DNA of 51,111 nt. It comes from Clostridia bacterium. GTDB lineage: Bacteria; Bacillota; Clostridia; Christensenellales; Aristaeellaceae. Both the position numbers and the translations under genes were made by a program. How positions within the stretch are numbered: the first letter of the stretch is position 1; every line of letters starts with the position of its first letter. The notes below the pieces were generated by a model that was given only the letters and a program-made list of their open reading frames with translations, searched no databases and was not told the origin of the DNA. Shown here in pieces: positions 39,209 to 51,111 of the stretch. The stretch spans positions 1 through 51,111 of the forward strand of contig JAUMVG010000019.1 of NCBI GenBank assembly GCA_030530315.1. Reading direction: 5' to 3'.

Positions 39209-40507
39209 CTACGCCCCCTTCCTGCGCCAGATGCGCTCCGTGGCGTAGCGCACGGCGTCGATGGCGTGGTCGTCGCCGTCCGGGTAGCCGCCTATCAGCT
39301 CCCCTTCCGGCGTCCGCGCATATTCGTACCGGCTGAACTCCCGCGCCGCGTGGGGGCACCGCGCCGGGTCGATCACGATCCTCCGCAGCGATTGCAGCCA
39401 CTTGAAGGAATAGCGCCGGCTGTCCGGCCCCTTCAACGCGCCGCGGCACAGGCTCCCGTAGCTTCGAAAGTCCTGAATCGACTTCTCCTCGGCGCTGTCC
39501 GCGGTGATCAAATCGCACTCCCGCACGCCCTTCTCCGCCTTCAGCGCCTGCCAGGCGTCCGCGTTCTTCTGCCGGTACGCCCGGTACTCGTCGATCACGT
39601 ACAGCGTCTGTCGACCCGCGTCATAGTGCAGCTTCACCCACTGGAAGGGATCCGGGAACCATCCCCAGTCGATACCCATCAATATGTTGTCGAACCGATC
39701 CCGCTCCGCCTCAGAGATCGCCCTCAGCTCCAGGTTCTCGAACACCTCGCCGCCGGTCCCGGTGACCTCCCCCAGGTACTCGTGCCGGTATGCCCGGGTA
39801 TTTCGCCTCTCCAGCTCCTCCGCGGCGTCGAAAAACGCCTTGCCCAGCCAGCTTCGCGGCATCTCCAGATAGCAGGACCGATGCCGCAGGGTGTCCCGGG
39901 CGGGCTGCGTCACATAGGCGTTGACCCAGCTCGACTGGCTGACGGGCGGATTGAAGCTCTTGAACACCACGAAGCGCTCCCCGCCGCGCAGCACCGACTG
40001 CTGCACGCTGCGCACCTCCTCCGGCCCGTCGAACTCGTCCAGCTCCTCGAACCACAGGTATTTCAGGTAGCCCCTCGACACCTTCACCGACTTCAGCTTC
40101 CTTGCGCTGTCCAGTCCCCGGAACAGTATCGCCTGCCCCGTAGGCACGTAGGTCGCCCGGTACGGGCTGACGCTGCACTGCCATCGCCTGGATGCCCCCA
40201 GCGCGTCGATGGCCCACAGGATCTGCTCGTACACGCTGGTGCCAATGGTGTTTCCCACCTTTCGGAACACCACCGCGTTGGCGGCGGGATCGCTCATGAT
40301 CCCCAGCACGATCTCCACCGATATGAAGCTGGATTTCCCGCTGCCCCGGCCGCCGAACAGATCATAATAGGTGTGCCTGCCCTCCGCGATATCCCAGTGC
40401 AGGCCGTAGAAGGACGGCGCGATCAGCCGGGACAGCCGAACGACCGGGGCGCTCTCCGCGCTGCCGCGGCGTGCCTTCGACCCCCGCTTCCCGCTCCGGG
40501 CATTCAT
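39209..40507 (-). CDS. Phage terminase large subunit, PBSX/SPP1-like
   Basis: The 432-residue packaging motor has an ATPase half with Walker A GGRGSGKS at 52-59 and Walker B LWFEELDE at 151-158, and a nuclease half with the first acidic residue in GIDWG near 280, another near 340 in ADSAEE, and the closing DDHAIDAVRY near the C-terminus. This set matches the PBSX/SPP1-type large terminases, which package by headful. The start overlaps the small subunit by 4 bases. Confidence 0.93.
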   Translation of the reverse strand: MNARSGKRGSKARRGSAESAPVVRLSRLIAPSFYGLHWDIAEGRHTYYDLFGGRGSGKSSFISVEIVLGIMSDPAANAVVFRKVGNTIGTSVYEQILWAIDALGASRRWQCSVSPYRATYVPTGQAILFRGLDSARKLKSVKVSRGYLKYLWFEELDEFDGPEEVRSVQQSVLRGGERFVVFKSFNPPVSQSSWVNAYVTQPARDTLRHRSCYLEMPRSWLGKAFFDAAEELERRNTRAYRHEYLGEVTGTGGEVFENLELRAISEAERDRFDNILMGIDWGWFPDPFQWVKLHYDAGRQTLYVIDEYRAYRQKNADAWQALKAEKGVRECDLITADSAEEKSIQDFRSYGSLCRGALKGPDSRRYSFKWLQSLRRIVIDPARCPHAAREFSRYEYARTPEGELIGGYPDGDDHAIDAVRYATERIWRRKGA

Positions 40508-41304
40508 CCTTCCACCTCCGTCATCGCCATCCCGGGCACTCCCGATCCGCCTCCGTCAAGGTTCTCTGCCGACCCGGATTCCTCCGTTCCCGGGCATCCC
40601 GCCGACCCGAAGGACTTCCCCGCCGCGCCTCCCCCTTCACCCGGGGCATCCGGCGGATTCCCCTCCCGGAGAATGTCGCACAGGATCTGCACCGGCTGGA
40701 CGCACTCGTCCTGGTCGCCCCTTCCGACCTCGTCGCCCCACGCCTCCGGCGCGCGCTTTTCCAGCCAGAACTTCTGGGCGCTCATGTTGGGCGGCACGTG
40801 CACGTCGTCGATGCCCGTCTCCAGCTCCTCGTATTCCCGCAGCTTTCGCCCGTTCTCGCCGTACTCCACGTGCTTCACCTTGTAGGTCTTGCGCAGCGAC
40901 TTCGTATATCCCACCGCCAGGCTGTGCAGCGCGGACTCCACCTCGGCGTTCGCCAGCTCGCCATCGTAGTTCAGCGCCTCGGCGATCTCCGGATACTGCC
41001 GTTTCCATCGGGCGAGCGTTCTGTGGGCAACGCCGCACTTCCCAGCGATCTGCCGTTCCGACAGGCCGTCCCGCGCCCATGCCCGCAGCATCGTCAGCCC
41101 GTCCGGCTGCAGCCACCTGTGATACTTGGCCCTCTCCTCCCGGTTCAGCGCCATATCCTCTGACCGACGCGCGCCGCGTTCCTCACAAGCGCTCTCCCCG
41201 CCTGTCCTCCGCCCGCCGCGCCGCTTCGGGCCCGGCCCGGTCCCTTCGTCCGCTTCGGTCGCGCCGTGAGCCATTTCCTCCAGCGCTTCCTCCTGTCCCG
41301 ACAT
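40504..41304 (-). CDS. Phage terminase small subunit
   Basis: The 266-residue product has a disordered, charged first 50 residues, then a helix-turn-helix LSERQIAGKCGVAHRTLARWK near 82-102, a central helical part that recognises DNA or the large subunit, and a Gly-rich tail. Position, overlap with terL and the HTH fit TerS, which chooses the packaging site. GGGAGG supports ATG 41304, although an internal ATG at 41154 would give a protein more typical in length. Confidence 0.85.
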   Translation of the reverse strand: MSGQEEALEEMAHGATEADEGTGPGPKRRGGRRTGGESACEERGARRSEDMALNREERAKYHRWLQPDGLTMLRAWARDGLSERQIAGKCGVAHRTLARWKRQYPEIAEALNYDGELANAEVESALHSLAVGYTKSLRKTYKVKHVEYGENGRKLREYEELETGIDDVHVPPNMSAQKFWLEKRAPEAWGDEVGRGDQDECVQPVQILCDILREGNPPDAPGEGGGAAGKSFGSAGCPGTEESGSAENLDGGGSGVPGMAMTEVEG

Positions 41305-41647
41305 TTGATCCCTCCCCTCACATGAGAATGGTGAAGTGCCCTCGGCTCCCCGTGGCCTTCCCGCCGCGTCAGGACCTCGCGCACTTCACCGATATCCATT
41401 CTACACCGCATTCCCTGTCACGTCCTGTCGACTTCGCGCCTTTCCCTCCGTCCATCGCCCTCAGCGCTTCACTCTCGCCTCGGCGCGCTCCTCCACATTA
41501 CCCATTCTACACCCTATCCCCTGTCGCCGCCTGTCGACTTCAAGTCCTCCCCACTCTTTCCTTTTCAACTCCGCACCCAACGCTCCACCCTCCACACATA
41601 ATTGCTCTCAACTCTTAACTCTTAACTCTTAACTATAAACTCTCCGT
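41305..41647 (-). promoter_or_regulatory. Non-coding region before terS with direct and inverted repeats
   Basis: No gene is seen here. It holds two copies of a 44-45 bp repeat (41392-41435 and 41497-41541) sharing CATTCTACACC and CCTGTCGACTTC, and an inverted pair GGTGAAGTGC (41330-41339) and GCACTTCACC (41381-41390). It lies between the sigma-like regulator gene and terS, so it could be the late promoter region, the activator site or the packaging start. Downstream, AACTCTT is repeated three times at 41610-41630. Confidence 0.6.
41610..41634. repeat. Tandem AACTCTT heptamers
   Basis: Three perfect 7-bp units plus AACT lie 13 bases beyond the stop codon of the sigma-like gene. The unit length equals that of the CCCAATT arrays elsewhere, although the sequence differs. 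Confidence 0.75.
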
Positions 41648-42073
41648 CTACGCCGCCCCCGGCACCTTCACGGCGTTCAGCGCCTCCCGATGCAAATGCC
41701 ATATCCGGTCCACGCTGTACAGCATGACCTGGGCGATCCGCTCCCAGCTCCAACCGTTCAGATACCGATAGGTCAGCAGGTCCCGATACCTCTGGTCCGG
41801 CACGGCGTCGATGGTCTCGCCGATCTCCCGGCTCAGCTGCGCCAGATCGTCGATCCGGCGCTCGATCTCCCTCGCCAGGTCCGCCATCCTGCAGCCGTAT
41901 TCCTCCACGCTGCTGACCTGCCGCGTCGTTCCGTGACGGCTCCCGCCCGCGCTGTAGCGGTAGTGCGTCGTGCACTGTGCCGCCAGCACCTCATAGCGCC
42001 GCCTGCGCTCCCTCAACGCCTCGATCCTCACATTCATCTGTCGCGCCTGCTGCAAATACTCCTTGGCCGTCAT
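41648..42073 (-). CDS. Phage regulator with sigma-region-4-like helix-turn-helix
   Basis: The 141-residue product has a helical first half (ARQMNVRIEALRERRRRYE) and a C-terminal HTH in YRDLLTYRYLNGWSWERIAQVM. Such small sigma-factor-like proteins (ArpU, RinA and Xpf types) switch on the late genes in phages of Gram-positive bacteria. It is the first gene of the minus-strand run, placed under the promoter at 42295-42323 and next to the operator at 42105-42117. Its place, directly before the terminase genes, matches PBSX Xpf. Confidence 0.8.
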   Translation of the reverse strand: MTAKEYLQQARQMNVRIEALRERRRRYEVLAAQCTTHYRYSAGGSRHGTTRQVSSVEEYGCRMADLAREIERRIDDLAQLSREIGETIDAVPDQRYRDLLTYRYLNGWSWERIAQVMLYSVDRIWHLHREALNAVKVPGAA

Positions 42074-42104
42074 TGAATTTCACCCCGCTTTTCGCTCTCA
42101 TTTA

Positions 42105-42356
42105 TCCACATTGTGGACTTCACGTTCTGTGTTCCGGCACGCGCTTCCCAATCCCCGGGCCAATCCCAAAGCTATCGGCTTATAACAAGCTGCAAAACCT
42201 ACTGCTTCCGGGCGGCTTCAAACCCTTCTCATCGAAAGGCGCAGTGCCATTCAAGGCTCATCCCATCGTTTTAGTTCACTTTGTGGACAAAGGGATCATA
42301 CCACACTTTTCACGCTCTGTCAACCACATTGTGGACATTTTTCTTGCATTTGTGGA
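42105..42356. promoter_or_regulatory. Four-copy operator array of the S24 repressor
   Basis: Four 13-bp sites share the half-site TGTGGA: 42105-42117 (perfect palindrome TCCACATTGTGGA), 42275-42287, 42323-42335 (perfect apart from the ends) and 42344-42356 (one good half). The last two are 21 bases apart, two helical turns, so side-by-side binding is likely. Sites 2-4 flank or overlap the two divergent promoters, the design expected for a phage repressor switch. The first site lies in the leader near the regulator start. Confidence 0.85.
42295..42323 (-). promoter_or_regulatory. Minus-strand phage promoter
   Basis: The minus strand has TTGACA (42323-42318) and TATGAT (42300-42295) 17 bases apart. 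The -35 box touches operator 3, and operator 2 lies just past the -10, so the repressor should block it. It drives the sigma-like regulator and perhaps the late genes after a leader of about 215 bases. Confidence 0.88.
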
Positions 42357-42372
42357 CAAAATATGCTATCAT
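42344..42372 (+). promoter_or_regulatory. Promoter of the phage repressor gene
   Basis: TTGCAT (42344-42349) and TATCAT (42367-42372) are 17 bases apart. Operator 4 overlaps the -35 box, which would let the repressor limit its own synthesis. Confidence 0.8.
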
Positions 42373-42390
42373 ACCCCTGAGGTGATCACC

Positions 42391-43065
42391 ATGGCGAGTT
42401 TCCAGCACAGGTTTTCCGAATTGTTGTCCCGCTCCGCGCTGAATGACAGCGCCGTCGCCGAGGCCCTCGGCGTCTCCAAGCAGACCGTCAGCGCCTGGAA
42501 GAGCGGTGACCGCACCCCCAAGCGCCCCACCGTCATCACCATCGCTTCCTACTTCAACGTCAGCGTCCCCTGGCTCCTCGGCATCTCCGACGACGATCAG
42601 GCCGGCTTCACCCGCCCGCTGCCCGCCAGCCTGCGGCCCGTGCAGTCGCTGCGCCACCAGCGCGTGCCGCTGATCGGCAGGGTGGCCGCCGGCAAGCCCA
42701 TCATGGCGGAGACTGACTACGAAACCTACGTCGATACCCCCGTGGAGTGTGACTGCGCCCTGGAGGTGGAGGGCGACAGCATGGTCCCCACCTACCTTCC
42801 CGGCGACATCCTCTACATCCGCCACCAGCCCGACGTCGTCGACGGCCAGATCGCCGTCGTCCTCATCGACGACCGCGCCGCCGTCAAGCACGTCTATCAC
42901 GATCCCGACGGCCTGACCCTCATCAGCGACAACCCGGCCTATCCCCCCATGCGCGTCAGCGGCAAAGACCACGACTATATCGCCATCTATGGCATCCCCA
43001 TGGGCTTCACCCGCATGTATAAGCACGACCCCGCCAATCTGATCCACAAGGGTTTCGACCGCTGA
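42391..43065 (+). CDS. LexA-like phage repressor with S24 self-cleavage domain
   Basis: The 224-residue product has an N-terminal XRE helix-turn-helix (VAEALGVSKQTVSAWKSGD, residues 22-40) and a C-terminal S24 peptidase domain. The cleavage bond would be A100-G101 in VAAGKP, the nucleophile is S130 in EGDSMVPTY, and the base is K166 in AAVKHVY. Proteins of this kind repress phage genes and cut themselves when RecA is activated by DNA damage, so the element should be SOS-inducible. TGAGGTGATC precedes ATG 42391. It is the only plus-strand gene of the element. Confidence 0.95.
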   Translation: MASFQHRFSELLSRSALNDSAVAEALGVSKQTVSAWKSGDRTPKRPTVITIASYFNVSVPWLLGISDDDQAGFTRPLPASLRPVQSLRHQRVPLIGRVAAGKPIMAETDYETYVDTPVECDCALEVEGDSMVPTYLPGDILYIRHQPDVVDGQIAVVLIDDRAAVKHVYHDPDGLTLISDNPAYPPMRVSGKDHDYIAIYGIPMGFTRMYKHDPANLIHKGFDR

Positions 43066-43245: not shown

Positions 43246-44844
43246 CTATTCCTCTTCGTAGTCGGGAATCCGGCTCTCAAACAGCACCGTATCCCCGTCT
43301 TCGGAGATCTCCTGCAAGACCTCCGAGGCGTCGTCCATGTCGTCGGCCATGTGCAGGTTCGACCGGGAGAACCCGGACTGCACCATGCCGCGCACGATGC
43401 TCCGGGAAAAGCCCCGACGGCCCACCAGGATCACGGCATCCGCACAGTCCGCCATCACCGTACCCAGCGCGTAGTTCACGTCGGCGTCCCGGGAACCCTG
43501 GTCCCGCAGACCCGGCGTCACCACGATGCGCCGCCCCGGCATTTGGCTCAGCACCCGCAGGGCCTCGAAGGCGCTGTCCGAATCCTCGTTCAGCGTGTCG
43601 TCGATCACGTTCAACTCCCCGGGGATCAGCTGCATCCGGTGCTCGATGGGCGACAGCTTCCGCACGCCCTCGGCGATCTCCTCCATCGTCAAGCCCATCT
43701 TGTGGGCCAGCGCCGCCGCCAGCAGTATGTTCTTGATGTTGTAGCTGCCCAGCAGCCGGGTGCGGCAGTGGACGCGCTCACCGTCCGCGCACACCATGGC
43801 AAAGCCGGAGCCCTTTTCGCTGTAGGCGATCTTCTCCGCCCGCATGTAGGCGCCCTCATCGCCATCCAGTCCGATGCGGCACTTGTCGTGCCGGCACATG
43901 GCGTACAGCCGGCTGATGTAGTCGTCCCCGGAGCCAAACACGGCCAGTCCGCTCTTGGGGAGCCCCTGGATCAGCTCAAACTTCGTGCTGGCGATGTTCT
44001 CCAGGGAGCCAAAGGTGTCCATGTGCCGGGGACCGATGCTGGTCAGTATGCCATACTTCGGGTGCACCAGGTCCACCAGCTCCTTGATGTCGCCCACGTG
44101 GGTCGCGCCCATCTCCGCGATGAACACCTGGTGCTCGTCCGTCAGCTGGTCGTTCACCACGCGGGAGATGCCCATGGCGGTGTTGAAGCTGGCCGGCGTG
44201 GCCAGCACCTTGTACTTCATGGACAGCAGGTCCCGCAGTATGAACTTCACGTTCGTCTTGCCATAACTGCCGGTGATGCCGATGGTGACCAGGTCCTTGT
44301 GCTCCCGGATCTTCTTCCGGGCGCTCTTGAAGAAGCTGGCGTTCAGCCGCGTCTCGTAGGGGTCGATGAGCATCGCCGCCGCCTGCACCAGGAAGGGCAT
44401 CGCCGCAAACAGGAAATGGGCCGGGATGTGCAGCAGCTTCAGAAGCGACGCGCTCAGCAGGCACAGCGCAAACAGCACTCCCAACAGCCTGCGGATCCGC
44501 TGCGTCACCACGAAGGGCTTCTTGCTGGGCTTGCTGTAGTCCCGCCAGGCGATCCACGCCATCAATCCGCAGAACAGCAGCAGCACCGTCCAGTTCGCCA
44601 GGGCGTTCCTCGCCGCCTCGCCCGCCATGAACATCGACAGCAGCACCGGCAGGTACAGGCTGGACACCCCGCCCACGAACGCCCACAGGACGTTCTCCTT
44701 AAGGATGCGGTCCCGATTCCGCGACAGCCACAGCCGGTAGGCCGGCAGCTGATAGCGCTCCATCTGCAAAACATGAATGTAGTGCACCGACGCCGCGCAG
44801 CACGCCACCGTCAGCAGCACGACCTCCACAATCGTAAACAACAT
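43246..44844 (-). CDS. Membrane-anchored Mur-ligase family protein (MurF-like)
   Basis: The 532-residue product has four or five hydrophobic segments in its first 170 residues, then a Mur ligase core: P-loop GITGSYGKTN near residues 194-203, FIAEMGATHVGDI near 244-256 and the C-terminal domain with VIDDTLNEDSDS and TPGLRDQGS. The ATP-dependent D-Ala-D-Ala-adding enzyme MurF is the closest known type, but ordinary MurF is soluble. The membrane part suggests a variant acting on lipid-linked or wall precursors. AAGAAGG precedes ATG 44844. It is followed (minus strand) by no further gene of its operon; rimI, tsaB and tsaE precede it by 12 bases or a little more, so they are likely co-transcribed. 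Confidence 0.85.
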   Translation of the reverse strand: MLFTIVEVVLLTVACCAASVHYIHVLQMERYQLPAYRLWLSRNRDRILKENVLWAFVGGVSSLYLPVLLSMFMAGEAARNALANWTVLLLFCGLMAWIAWRDYSKPSKKPFVVTQRIRRLLGVLFALCLLSASLLKLLHIPAHFLFAAMPFLVQAAAMLIDPYETRLNASFFKSARKKIREHKDLVTIGITGSYGKTNVKFILRDLLSMKYKVLATPASFNTAMGISRVVNDQLTDEHQVFIAEMGATHVGDIKELVDLVHPKYGILTSIGPRHMDTFGSLENIASTKFELIQGLPKSGLAVFGSGDDYISRLYAMCRHDKCRIGLDGDEGAYMRAEKIAYSEKGSGFAMVCADGERVHCRTRLLGSYNIKNILLAAALAHKMGLTMEEIAEGVRKLSPIEHRMQLIPGELNVIDDTLNEDSDSAFEALRVLSQMPGRRIVVTPGLRDQGSRDADVNYALGTVMADCADAVILVGRRGFSRSIVRGMVQSGFSRSNLHMADDMDDASEVLQEISEDGDTVLFESRIPDYEEE

Positions 44845-48024: not shown

Positions 48025-48072
48025 AAAAAATCGGCCCCGTCGCGGGATAGCATCCCGCTTCGGAGCCGATTC
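48025..48072 (-). terminator. Intrinsic terminator of the large repeat protein gene
   Basis: A long, nearly perfect stem (about 48031-48048 with 48052-48070, one bulge or mismatch) is followed on the minus strand by six T residues, 16 bases beyond the stop codon. Confidence 0.9.
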
Positions 48073-48087
48073 CCCCATTCCGCGCCG

Positions 48088-51000
48088 TCAGGCCTCGGTG
48101 GAATCCACTATCGCGTACGTCGGCGGCTTGCAGTAGGGGCAAGCCTTGTAATCCCAATCCAACGCGTACTGCAGCGTCACCTTGGTACCGGCGGAGAATC
48201 CGGCATCCTTGCACTTGGCGGACTTGTGATAGTAGTTGTTGGCGCTGCCGATGTCGATGTACACATTGCTGTCGCTGGCCGCCCCGTACTCCTCCTGGGA
48301 GACCGGCGCGTCCTCGGCGCCGCCGTTGTCGTATTCATTGCTGCCCGGCGAGAGCACCGTGCACAGCGGGCAGGCCTTCATGCCGTAGGCTCTGGCCTCG
48401 GCCAGCGTGCCGGCGGTGGCGCCGGAGCCCGCGTGGGCCTTGCTGTAGTGGTAGTACTTGCCGCCCGGCGTCGCGTACACCTTCCGGCTGGCGGAGCTCA
48501 GGCAGACCGGGCAGGCCTTCTTGCCGTAGTTCAGCGCCGTCTCCAGAGCGATCTTGCTCGCGCCGGTCAAGCCGGAGCAATTCTTCTGGGAGTGGTAGTA
48601 CTTGCTTCCCAGCGTGGCGTACACCTTGATGCCGGAGGTGCCCACGGTGTAGATGTCCTCGGCGTTCTGCGCCGCCTCCCGTGCCTGCTCCAGCTTGCGC
48701 ACGCAGTTCGGGCACGGGTCAAGCCCGTAGGCCAGCGCCGAGGCCAGCGTGCCCTGCTTCGCGCCGGAGCCCGCGTCGCTCTTGCTGTAGTGGTAGTATT
48801 TGCCGCCCTTGGTGGCGTACACCTTGCGGCTGGCCGCGCCGGCGCAGTCCGGGCAGGCCTTCTTGCCGTAGTTCAGCGCCGTCTCCAGCGTCACGCGGGA
48901 GGGGCTGCCGGTCATGTTGGGGCAGTTGCTCTTGGTGTGATAGTACTTGCCCGTCACCGAGGCGTACACCCGGATGCCGGACTTGCCGGACCGATAGGTG
49001 GTGCTGCCCTGCTGGGCCACCGCGCCCGCGGCCTGCACCGCCGCCTGATACTGCGCCGCGGCGGCCTGGGCCGCCTCCGCCCGGGCCTTGCTGCTCAGGC
49101 AGTGGGGGCAGGCGGTCTGGTTCAGCATCAGCGCCTCCGCCAGGGTACGCTTCGTGCCGTTCTTCATGCCCGAGGGCGCGCACACGCTGGCCACGTGGTA
49201 GTGTTCGCCGTTCTTGGTGGAATACACCGTGCGCTTCGCCGCGCTAGCGCAGGTCGGGCAGGGTTTCTTGCCGGCGTTGATGGCCGTCTTCAGCGTGACC
49301 CGGCTGGCGTCGGTCATGCCGCTGCAAGAGCTCTTCAGGTGATAGTAGGCGCCGCTGCGGGTCGCGTACACATAGGTGTTGCTCGCCGTCGCCCTGGAGG
49401 CCGCGGTACTTTGGCGGGTGTTCGTCGTGGTCGTCCCGTTCCCGCCGTTCTGCTGCGCCTGGGCCGCCTGCTGCTGCTGTTGTTGCTGCTGCTGGGCGGA
49501 GGCGGTCTGCGCGGCGTTGTTGCCCCAGCACTTCGGGCAGCGCCTGTAGCCCGCCGCCAGCGCGTCCGCCAGGGTGCCGCTCGCCGCGCCGGTCATGCCG
49601 GAGCAGGTGGCGTAGGAGTGGTAGTACTTGCCGCCCTTGGTCGCGTACACCGTGGTGTTCGCCGCGGAGGCGCAGGTCGGGCAGGCCTTCTTGCCCGCCA
49701 GGATCATGGACTTCAGGGAATACAGCTGGGCGTCCTTCATGCCGCTGCAATTGCTGCGCGTGTGGTAGTAGGTGCCGTTCTTCGTGGCGTACACCTTCAC
49801 GTCGCCAGACGCGGTGGTCAGCGACACAGTGTTGCCGTCGCCGTCACCGGTGCCGCCTGCGTTGGCGGCATCGCCGCCGCCGGTGCCCTTCATGCACACG
49901 TCGCACTTTGTCTTGCCCATGACCATGGCCTCGGCCCGCGTGATCTGCTTTGCCTTGGTCATGCCCTGGCAGGTCTTGTCCGTGTGGTAGGACTTGCCGC
50001 CGCTGGTGCAATACACCAGCTCGCCCGCCGCCGCGCAGCAGGTCGGGCAGGCCTTCTTGCCCGCCAGCAGGGCGTCCCTCAACGCGCCCTTCGTGGCGTT
50101 CTTCATGCCGCTGCAATTGCTCTTGACGTGGAAATAGGTGCCATCCTTCGTGGCGTACACCTCCACGCCGCTCTGGTCGCGGGTGTTGGAGTCGATGAAT
50201 ACCGTGCCCACGTCGTCGGTCTCATCCAGGCTCTCCTGGGTCTTCAGGATGCACACCGGGCAGGGCGCCTTGCCCTGGCTCTCGGCGGCCTCCTTGGTGT
50301 AGACCAGCGGGTTGCGCATGTTGCTGCACCTGGAATCCAGGTGGTAGTATTTGCCGCCCACCGTGGCGTAGTAGGTCGTCGTCGTGCCGCCGCCGATGCA
50401 GTCCGGGCAGGGACTCTGGTGACGGCTGTTTTCCGCGATCTCCCGGGTCACCCGGGTGGTGGTGACGCCCTCCCCGATGCTGGGGCAGGTGTCCGTAGCG
50501 TGGTAGTACAGGCCGGTAGCCGGGCTGTAGACGAACACCGCGGTCTCGGTGCCCGTGCCGCTGCCAGAGCTGTTCAGGGGCGTCGGGGAGGGCTGAACCT
50601 CCGTGCCGGCATCCGCCGCGGCGCCATCGCCGCTGTCAACGCCCACATCCGTGCCGGCATCCGCGCCTTCGTCAGCGCCGCTGTCTTCGGGCGCGACCGT
50701 GGCAGTGCCGCCGCCGAGGTCGATGCTCGTCACCTCTTCGGGGGCCTGGGTCGCCTCCGCCGTCACCGGCGGGATGGTGATGTTGGGCTGGGCCTGGGTG
50801 TCGCCGGTGCCGCCGAACAGGCCGCGCAGCAGCAGGATCAGCGCCACGATGAACCAGATCGCCGAGGCCGCGGTCACGGCCCAGCGGATGGGCTTCTCGA
50901 ACCGGTTCCTCCGCCACAGCAGGTAGATGCCCAGCGGCGGCAGCAGGAACAGCAGCAGATAGGTCACCCAGTCGTTCTCCTCCACATAGCGCATCAGGCT

Positions 51001-51111
51001 GCTCTGCTCGGATTCATACTCGCCGTAGTCCCCGGCATCCTGGTCGGAATAGCGGTCGTTGTAATCGCCGTCGTCGCCATAGCCGTCGCTGCCGTAGTCG
51101 TCGTCGGCATA
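48088..51111 (-). CDS. Large membrane protein with 13 Ada-like Cys/His metal-binding repeats (5' end cut)
   Basis: The frame has no stop before the window edge at 51111, so the N-terminus is missing; 1007 residues are visible. The first 39 residues are extremely rich in Asp, Tyr and Gly. Two membrane segments follow (about residues 47-67 and 76-99), then an acidic, Thr/Ala-rich linker, and from about residue 185 to the end thirteen repeats of 40-65 residues. Each repeat has the pattern VYAT(x)4-YYH(x)4-C(S)GM ... GKKxCPxC: one His and three Cys, the arrangement of the Ada-type zinc site also found at the C-terminus of some secreted nucleases. Repeats 10 and 12 lack the first Cys. A run of nine Gln lies in the linker near the middle. 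The domain is known to bind zinc in relatives; the role of such a long array is not known to me. Confidence 0.88.
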   Translation of the reverse strand, partial: YADDDYGSDGYGDDGDYNDRYSDQDAGDYGEYESEQSSLMRYVEENDWVTYLLLFLLPPLGIYLLWRRNRFEKPIRWAVTAASAIWFIVALILLLRGLFGGTGDTQAQPNITIPPVTAEATQAPEEVTSIDLGGGTATVAPEDSGADEGADAGTDVGVDSGDGAAADAGTEVQPSPTPLNSSGSGTGTETAVFVYSPATGLYYHATDTCPSIGEGVTTTRVTREIAENSRHQSPCPDCIGGGTTTTYYATVGGKYYHLDSRCSNMRNPLVYTKEAAESQGKAPCPVCILKTQESLDETDDVGTVFIDSNTRDQSGVEVYATKDGTYFHVKSNCSGMKNATKGALRDALLAGKKACPTCCAAAGELVYCTSGGKSYHTDKTCQGMTKAKQITRAEAMVMGKTKCDVCMKGTGGGDAANAGGTGDGDGNTVSLTTASGDVKVYATKNGTYYHTRSNCSGMKDAQLYSLKSMILAGKKACPTCASAANTTVYATKGGKYYHSYATCSGMTGAASGTLADALAAGYRRCPKCWGNNAAQTASAQQQQQQQQQAAQAQQNGGNGTTTTNTRQSTAASRATASNTYVYATRSGAYYHLKSSCSGMTDASRVTLKTAINAGKKPCPTCASAAKRTVYSTKNGEHYHVASVCAPSGMKNGTKRTLAEALMLNQTACPHCLSSKARAEAAQAAAAQYQAAVQAAGAVAQQGSTTYRSGKSGIRVYASVTGKYYHTKSNCPNMTGSPSRVTLETALNYGKKACPDCAGAASRKVYATKGGKYYHYSKSDAGSGAKQGTLASALAYGLDPCPNCVRKLEQAREAAQNAEDIYTVGTSGIKVYATLGSKYYHSQKNCSGLTGASKIALETALNYGKKACPVCLSSASRKVYATPGGKYYHYSKAHAGSGATAGTLAEARAYGMKACPLCTVLSPGSNEYDNGGAEDAPVSQEEYGAASDSNVYIDIGSANNYYHKSAKCKDAGFSAGTKVTLQYALDWDYKACPYCKPPTYAIVDSTEA

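Follow-up and report, generated by a model that had tools for sequence, protein, structure and literature searches.

The window analyzed here is the entire contig JAUMVG010000019.1 (C79; 51,111 nucleotides) of an uncultured Clostridia genome (GCA_030530315.1; 3.58 Mb in 144 contigs). At its right edge it carries a gene for a protein with thirteen copies of a small cysteine- and histidine-rich repeat. Among relatives the copy number is nearly constant, the repeats are spaced as six pairs and a last single copy, and the gene stands back to back with a CapA-family gene whose product has lost most canonical motif positions. We propose, with a rough probability of 0.42, that the array acts as a membrane-anchored, zinc-stapled bead chain that works together with this pseudo-CapA as a non-catalytic envelope assembly, such as a tether or scaffold. 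An earlier note, made from the sequence of the window alone, had described the array but not the pairing, the fixed number or the CapA neighbor, which lies beyond the contig edge.

The gene and the parts of its product lie in the window as follows.

48088..51111, minus strand: array gene; its frame runs off the contig edge, leaving 1007 codons and the stop visible out of ~1145 codons
50992..51111, minus strand: residues 1-40, as much of the acidic Asp/Tyr tail as the contig retains
50821..50988, minus strand: membrane hairpin (residues 42-97) that includes two hydrophobic stretches and LLPPLGIYLLWRR
50536..50820, minus strand: poorly conserved stalk (residues 98-192; mean pairwise identity 0.32)
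50245..50532, minus strand: pair 1, repeats 1 (50392-50532) and 2 (50245-50373)
49888..50160, minus strand: pair 2, repeats 3 (50032-50160) and 4 (49888-50016)
49522..49794, minus strand: pair 3, repeats 5 (49663-49794) and 6 (49522-49650), chosen for modeling
49093..49371, minus strand: pair 4, repeats 7 (49240-49371) and 8 (49093-49227)
48697..48969, minus strand: pair 5, repeats 9 (48838-48969) and 10 (48697-48822; second ligand Asp)
48358..48624, minus strand: pair 6, repeats 11 (48496-48624) and 12 (48358-48480; second ligand His)
48124..48264, minus strand: single C-terminal repeat 13
48026..48071, minus strand: terminator-like inverted repeat followed by a T run, behind the array gene (by eye)

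The 5' end of the gene is cut off at the right edge of the window. Its start, whose recovery the earlier note had recommended, was traced to another contig of the same assembly, C58. The nearest named relative is locus L127 (RUG14645; 96% identity in the best segment), where the ortholog (L127:5578-9015) comprises 1145 residues. Because its first repeat begins at residue 332, compared to 194 in the window protein, about 138 residues are lacking from the latter. C58 begins within this lacking part, and its first 3 kb, which span the array start and the divergent capA gene, are 94% identical to L127. By comparison with L127, ~175 bases between the two contigs are uncovered and were left unfilled. 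Between the window and L127 arrays, dN is 0.018 and dS 0.170 (dN/dS ~0.10). The array is real, conserved and under selection.

Thirteen repeats in six pairs and a single

The repeats are ~44 residues long, some with small insertions, and follow the pattern H-x4-[C/D/H] ... C-x2-C with the ligand order H-C-C-C. The window protein contains 13 aromatic-His motifs (YYH, YFH, SYH or HYH) and 13 C-x2-C motifs. For detection we built a hidden Markov model (HMM) on 29 proteins that carry the domain once and lie outside the array family. It recovered all 13 repeats that had been proposed from the sequence, at 10.9 to 45.6 bits. Among 200 shuffles of the window protein the top score was 7.6 bits, and seven had a match at an independent E value below 0.01. 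The earlier estimate of about 50 Cys/His ligands was likewise borne out: the protein has 52 ligand positions, 50 of them canonical Cys/His and the other two D779 and H893, which occupy the second-ligand place in repeats 10 and 12.

Repeat number is nearly invariant. Among 32 complete proteins of named loci, the HMM detected 13 repeats in 29. The remaining three had 12, 11 and six. In the protein with 12 (L119), all ligands of the thirteenth repeat are nevertheless kept in an alignment of the same contig (L080), and the protein with 11 (L110) retains the pair spacing; the six-repeat protein is that of L124. Conservation of the ligands is equally strong: an alignment of 32 proteins, the window's and those of 31 named loci, has C, H or D in 1662 of its 1664 ligand cells, the exceptions being one F in repeat 7 and one Y in repeat 12. 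At the first ligand, His fills every one of the 13 x 32 cells. Changes are restricted to the second ligand and fall mainly in repeats 9-12, with C, H and D interchanging there; since these swaps stay among metal-binding residues, a metal site is favored.

Spacing within pairs has a median of 48 residues, with 152 of 174 values at 47-50, while 55-132 residues lie between pairs (29 proteins). This regularity defines six pairs and one last single repeat. Repeat identity follows the same division. In 453 ordered pairs of distant species, a repeat finds its best match at the same odd/even parity in 4842 of 5436 comparisons, and its best match at any other position keeps parity in 3871 of 5436, compared to ~45% by chance; these counts come from related sequences and are, hence, not independent. 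Judged by these similarities, odd and even repeats are different types. Strict position-by-position identity was found only in part, with 10, 5, 7, 8 and 9 of the 13 window repeats matching best at the same position in five species.

Structure prediction agrees with the pairing. An AlphaFold2 model of repeats 5 and 6 is well packed (predicted local distance difference test (pLDDT) 93.9, predicted template modeling score (pTM) 0.82), which suggests structural metal sites. The model of the whole ectodomain (818 residues; mean pLDDT 71.6) contains a recurring strand-strand-strand-helix element, and five of the six inter-pair linkers include a stretch with pLDDT below 50. The models thus support rigid pairs on flexible linkers but not a rigid rod. 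Of the cell-surface rod put forward in the earlier note, the rigidity survives within the predicted pair; order between pairs is not predicted, and a chain of beads fits better.

The N-terminal tail, correctly described before as acidic and tyrosine-rich, is rich in Asp and Tyr, and the part ahead of the hairpin carries a net charge of -33 to -58 in 30 orthologs, including one that is itself truncated by a contig edge. The two membrane segments suggested previously correspond to two hydrophobic peaks, at residues ~48-66 and 77-95, but two full passes are uncertain because the first peak is short and contains 'PP'. The tail is most likely cytoplasmic, as favored by its being acidic and signal-less. 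Net charge of the ectodomain ranges from +68 to -43 among orthologs, so that charge-driven polymer binding is not conserved, and polyanion binding was rejected as a function.

As in the first reading of the sequence, no catalytic domain was seen: Pfam and NCBIfam scans of the window protein returned no family above the cut-off, and the full-length ortholog L074 had no Pfam match. The statement that no function had been described for such an array also holds for the literature searched, in which titles and the openings of abstracts gave no description of this array or its function. As far as these searches can tell, the architecture is undescribed.

Kinship with Ada and with single-domain proteins

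The repeats had been called Ada-like zinc-binding domains. Searches of Pfam, NCBIfam and the PDB with them gave nothing above chance, and direct comparison with Ada was weak (75.8% over 17 columns). A connection emerged through an intermediate. A profile of the repeats and their single-domain kin matched a second C-terminal domain family, A7 (97.1%, E 6e-11), an H-type domain that in turn matches the N-terminal domain of Escherichia coli Ada (PDB 1adn, E 3.5e-6). The 11 members of A7 were drawn from a PF02805 (Ada_Zn_binding) search in which 14 of 79 genomes scored above the Pfam cut-off and one had a full Ada domain (114 bits); judged by their starts only, A7 carriers are lipoprotein-like, with one MBL-like. 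These profile links place the repeat among the distant Ada-type zinc domains. By family rules it is not an Ada domain, despite its Ada-like origin: PF02805 lists one of the 13 repeats, at E 0.1 and below the cut-off, for which membership was rejected, and a genome search found no PF02805 match in the window's genome.

Shared with the Ada N-terminal zinc domain (PF02805; PDB 1adn, 1u8b and 1zgw) are the order of the four ligands and a similar end, A-x-x-x-G-x-x-PC-x2-C. Other features differ. The nucleophilic Cys of Ada, which we take to be the methyl acceptor at the first ligand, is replaced by His (F-H aligned to Ada F-C), the array protein has thirteen copies, and Pfam scans found no methyltransferase or DNA-binding domain. 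Foldseek gave no significant support: the pair model returned a single, unrelated match (E 6.7), and N-Ada entries were the top two matches for the ectodomain model (E 4.7 and 5.6).

Elsewhere the domain occurs singly. The repeat profile (E 1e-4) matched 56 of 393 Clostridia genomes, including the window's own, and the other 55 had one or two matches each. Twenty-nine carrier proteins were read and have one domain each. Ten of these were scanned, yielding two Endonuclea_NS_2 nucleases, two ComEC-type MBL proteins, two DUF4236 proteins and one choline-binding-repeat protein. The remark that the domain usually ends secreted nucleases, therefore, holds for secreted-type nucleases and extends to ComEC-type MBL and other Clostridia proteins, in which it is also single and C-terminal. 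With signal-peptide-like starts (by eye) or secreted-type enzymes as carriers, the domain appears extracytoplasmic in these kin. The layout of the array protein recurs in L144, a one-copy form consisting of DUF4236, a hairpin homologous to that of the array protein (hhalign 97.5%, E 6.5e-12) and one domain, but without the Asp/Tyr tail. DUF4236 at the N terminus of the array protein was considered and not shown (12.7%, not significant; no Pfam match among 14 sequences).

The divergent CapA-family partner

Among 38 named array loci, a divergent capA gene stands beside the array in all 35 with enough upstream DNA; the other three, with 487, 142 and one base ahead of the array frame, were untestable. 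In 14 close relatives, the region between the two genes (L127:5230-5577) is a divergent promoter region with long invariant stretches and includes, by eye, a promoter-like TTGACA - 17 - TATGCT directed at the array. The partner in the window's own genome matches PGA_cap (PF09587) at E 3.8e-49 (167.9 bits, cut-off 27) and, thus, shares its domain with CapA/PgsA, but four canonical motif positions are lost.

This loss is general. We take GD, N-x-E, ANNH and HWG to be the canonical CapA positions. In all 36 partners (35 named plus our own), the canonical residue is missing at each of them (in ANNH at the second N), and the first H of GxHPH is lost in 30 of 35. Eight other CapA proteins were used for comparison: three own paralogs, three beside other array types and two from loci without a detected array. 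At all seven positions compared they are canonical, GD in 7/7 (one gap) and the rest in 8/8. The 36 partners fall on one side of one branch of the CapA tree (100/100; midpoint-rooted only), for which reason the motif loss counts as one change that has been kept since. The partner is, on these alignments, a probable pseudoenzyme.

Partners also carry a short N-terminal motif, taken as cytosolic, with the consensus GLRIGNYRITPLG. Its profile (E 1e-4) matched 15 of 100 genomes of the window's family, identical to the 15 with the best array matches and spread over six genera. The co-occurrence supports, but does not prove, dependence because both sets may mark one lineage. A place for the partner gene in a PgsBCA poly-gamma-glutamate synthase was rejected: CapC/PgsC (PF14102) was found in none of 41 genomes, with Bacillus subtilis as the one positive among 14 in a control search, and a poly-gamma-glutamate capsule is, therefore, not likely.

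Candidate envelope assembly, its rivals and remaining features

In the proposed assembly, the outer part of the array protein would string six rigid pairs of zinc domains and a terminal single domain on flexible linkers. Zinc ions would be structural, holding domains of ~45 residues together outside the cell, and the acidic tail would stay in the cytoplasm. The chain would work with the divergently encoded CapA-family protein as a non-catalytic envelope assembly and not as an enzyme with its metal supply. A structural chain fits because repeat number and pairs are constant and ligands invariant while charge and linkers vary, and a scaffold or binding role of the partner fits because most catalytic positions are lost. 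The same loss weakens the array as a metal supply for CapA. A more specific version strikes us as rather doubtful: the two proteins might form a new envelope apparatus of Clostridia, in which an ex-phosphoesterase is the fixed partner of the 13-domain chain, the number of domains sets its reach or valency across the cell wall and the acidic, tyrosine-rich tail reports or anchors inside. In one family of uncultured Clostridia, a small zinc-type domain otherwise found singly at the ends of secreted-type proteins has grown into a long array with a strictly kept count, and a capsule-type enzyme has turned into a probable pseudoenzyme beside it. If the pairing is true, it provides a testable envelope complex and a first function for repeats without a matching Pfam or NCBIfam model.

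Several observations weigh against this proposal. Computation establishes the repeat number and pairing, the conserved ligands, the kinship, the gene partnership and the lost CapA motif positions; zinc as the metal, an extracytoplasmic array, lost CapA activity, contact with CapA and tethering are all steps that we infer. The loop between the hydrophobic segments is positive, which by the positive-inside rule would place both ends outside; a re-entrant first segment would reconcile it with a cytoplasmic tail. With a pTM of 0.31, the ectodomain model supports no overall shape or length, and parity inside the window protein alone is weaker (8/12). Synteny by itself is not specific because mutY is also a conserved neighbor (31 of 38 loci; tsaE in 13 and galK in 11). 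Some CapA positions survive in the partners, namely the ANNH histidine in 34 of 36 and the second histidine of GxHPH in 32 of 35. Motif loss on one branch and co-occurrence in 15 genomes of six genera in one family may both be the history of one lineage. Among nine loci with more divergent arrays (L082-L089 and L091), CapA was present at L084, L085 and L086, that is, at three of eight testable loci, L087 having only ~0.6 kb upstream; CapA as a general neighbor of other array types was accordingly rejected. It is also absent beside the five-repeat paralog on contig C10 of the window's own genome (L007:8169-11238), which has a similar acidic tail and hairpin and adjoins an MBL-LTD lipoprotein-like gene.

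The main rival, which we consider unlikely, is an envelope signal receptor whose zinc domains bind or sense metal, oxidant or a ligand outside and signal via the hairpin to the acidic cytoplasmic tail, a tail that retains its character among orthologs. It draws on three ECF sigma factor genes in the window's own genome, all with Sigma70_r2 and Sigma70_r4_2 above the cut-off, that directly precede membrane-type genes with one to three copies of the domain:

L010:3450-4741: ECF sigma and domain-bearing membrane-type genes
L011:4418-6568: ECF sigma and domain-bearing membrane-type genes
L011:6878-9051: ECF sigma and domain-bearing membrane-type genes

DUF4179 gives weak, sub-threshold matches to two of these membrane-type proteins, and the domain proteins behind ECF sigma genes are likely anti-sigma-type sensors. 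The 13-repeat array, in contrast, has capA and no regulator as its constant neighbor. This is a weak argument, since no scan for sigma factors or kinases was made on the neighbors, and an ECF-like open reading frame ~3.3 kb from the array in L077 (by eye) weakens it further.

A surface zinc buffer or redox store, raised in the earlier note, would use the 13 metal sites of each molecule to hold zinc or thiols, in keeping with the practically invariant ligand positions. We regard it as improbable. In a metallothionein-like store, repeat number is free to vary and sites are flexible, whereas here the number is fixed in 29 of 32 proteins, odd and even repeats differ where mixing should be tolerated and the modeled pair is well packed. 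A CapA that has lost most canonical positions is also not an obvious client, and no Zur-like site was seen by eye in the conserved intergenic region, where no motif scan was run. Extracellular binding or processing of nucleic acid, as in Ada and the secreted-type nucleases with one copy, would accord with the single domains on Endonuclea_NS_2 and ComEC-type MBL proteins and with the MBL-LTD gene next to the C10 paralog. It appears quite improbable given that His replaces the methyl-acceptor Cys in every repeat examined, that the charge of the ectodomain varies, down to negative values in several species, and that the constant partner is CapA and not a nuclease.

The whole array protein matches 56 of 100 genomes of the window's family (E 0.001), and the named relatives come from metagenome assemblies, whose titles point mainly to rumen and gut. 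In the window's own genome the domain is matched 32 times at E 0.1 or lower. Two further own-genome genes, L009:6293-8779 and L011:1639-4350, encode proteins of 828 and 903 residues in which the domain directly follows a signal-peptide-like start; neither has a Pfam family above the cut-off. Elsewhere in the window, phage-type genes adjoin bacterial genes at 39212-43062 (first three entries), and a MurF-like ligase gene was noted (last entry):

39212-40507: Terminase_3
40507-41304: helix-turn-helix protein
41977-43062: S24 repressor-like
43246-44844: MurF-like ligase whose N-terminal part is hydrophobic (TIGR01143 at 211 bits, under its cut-off of 288.6)

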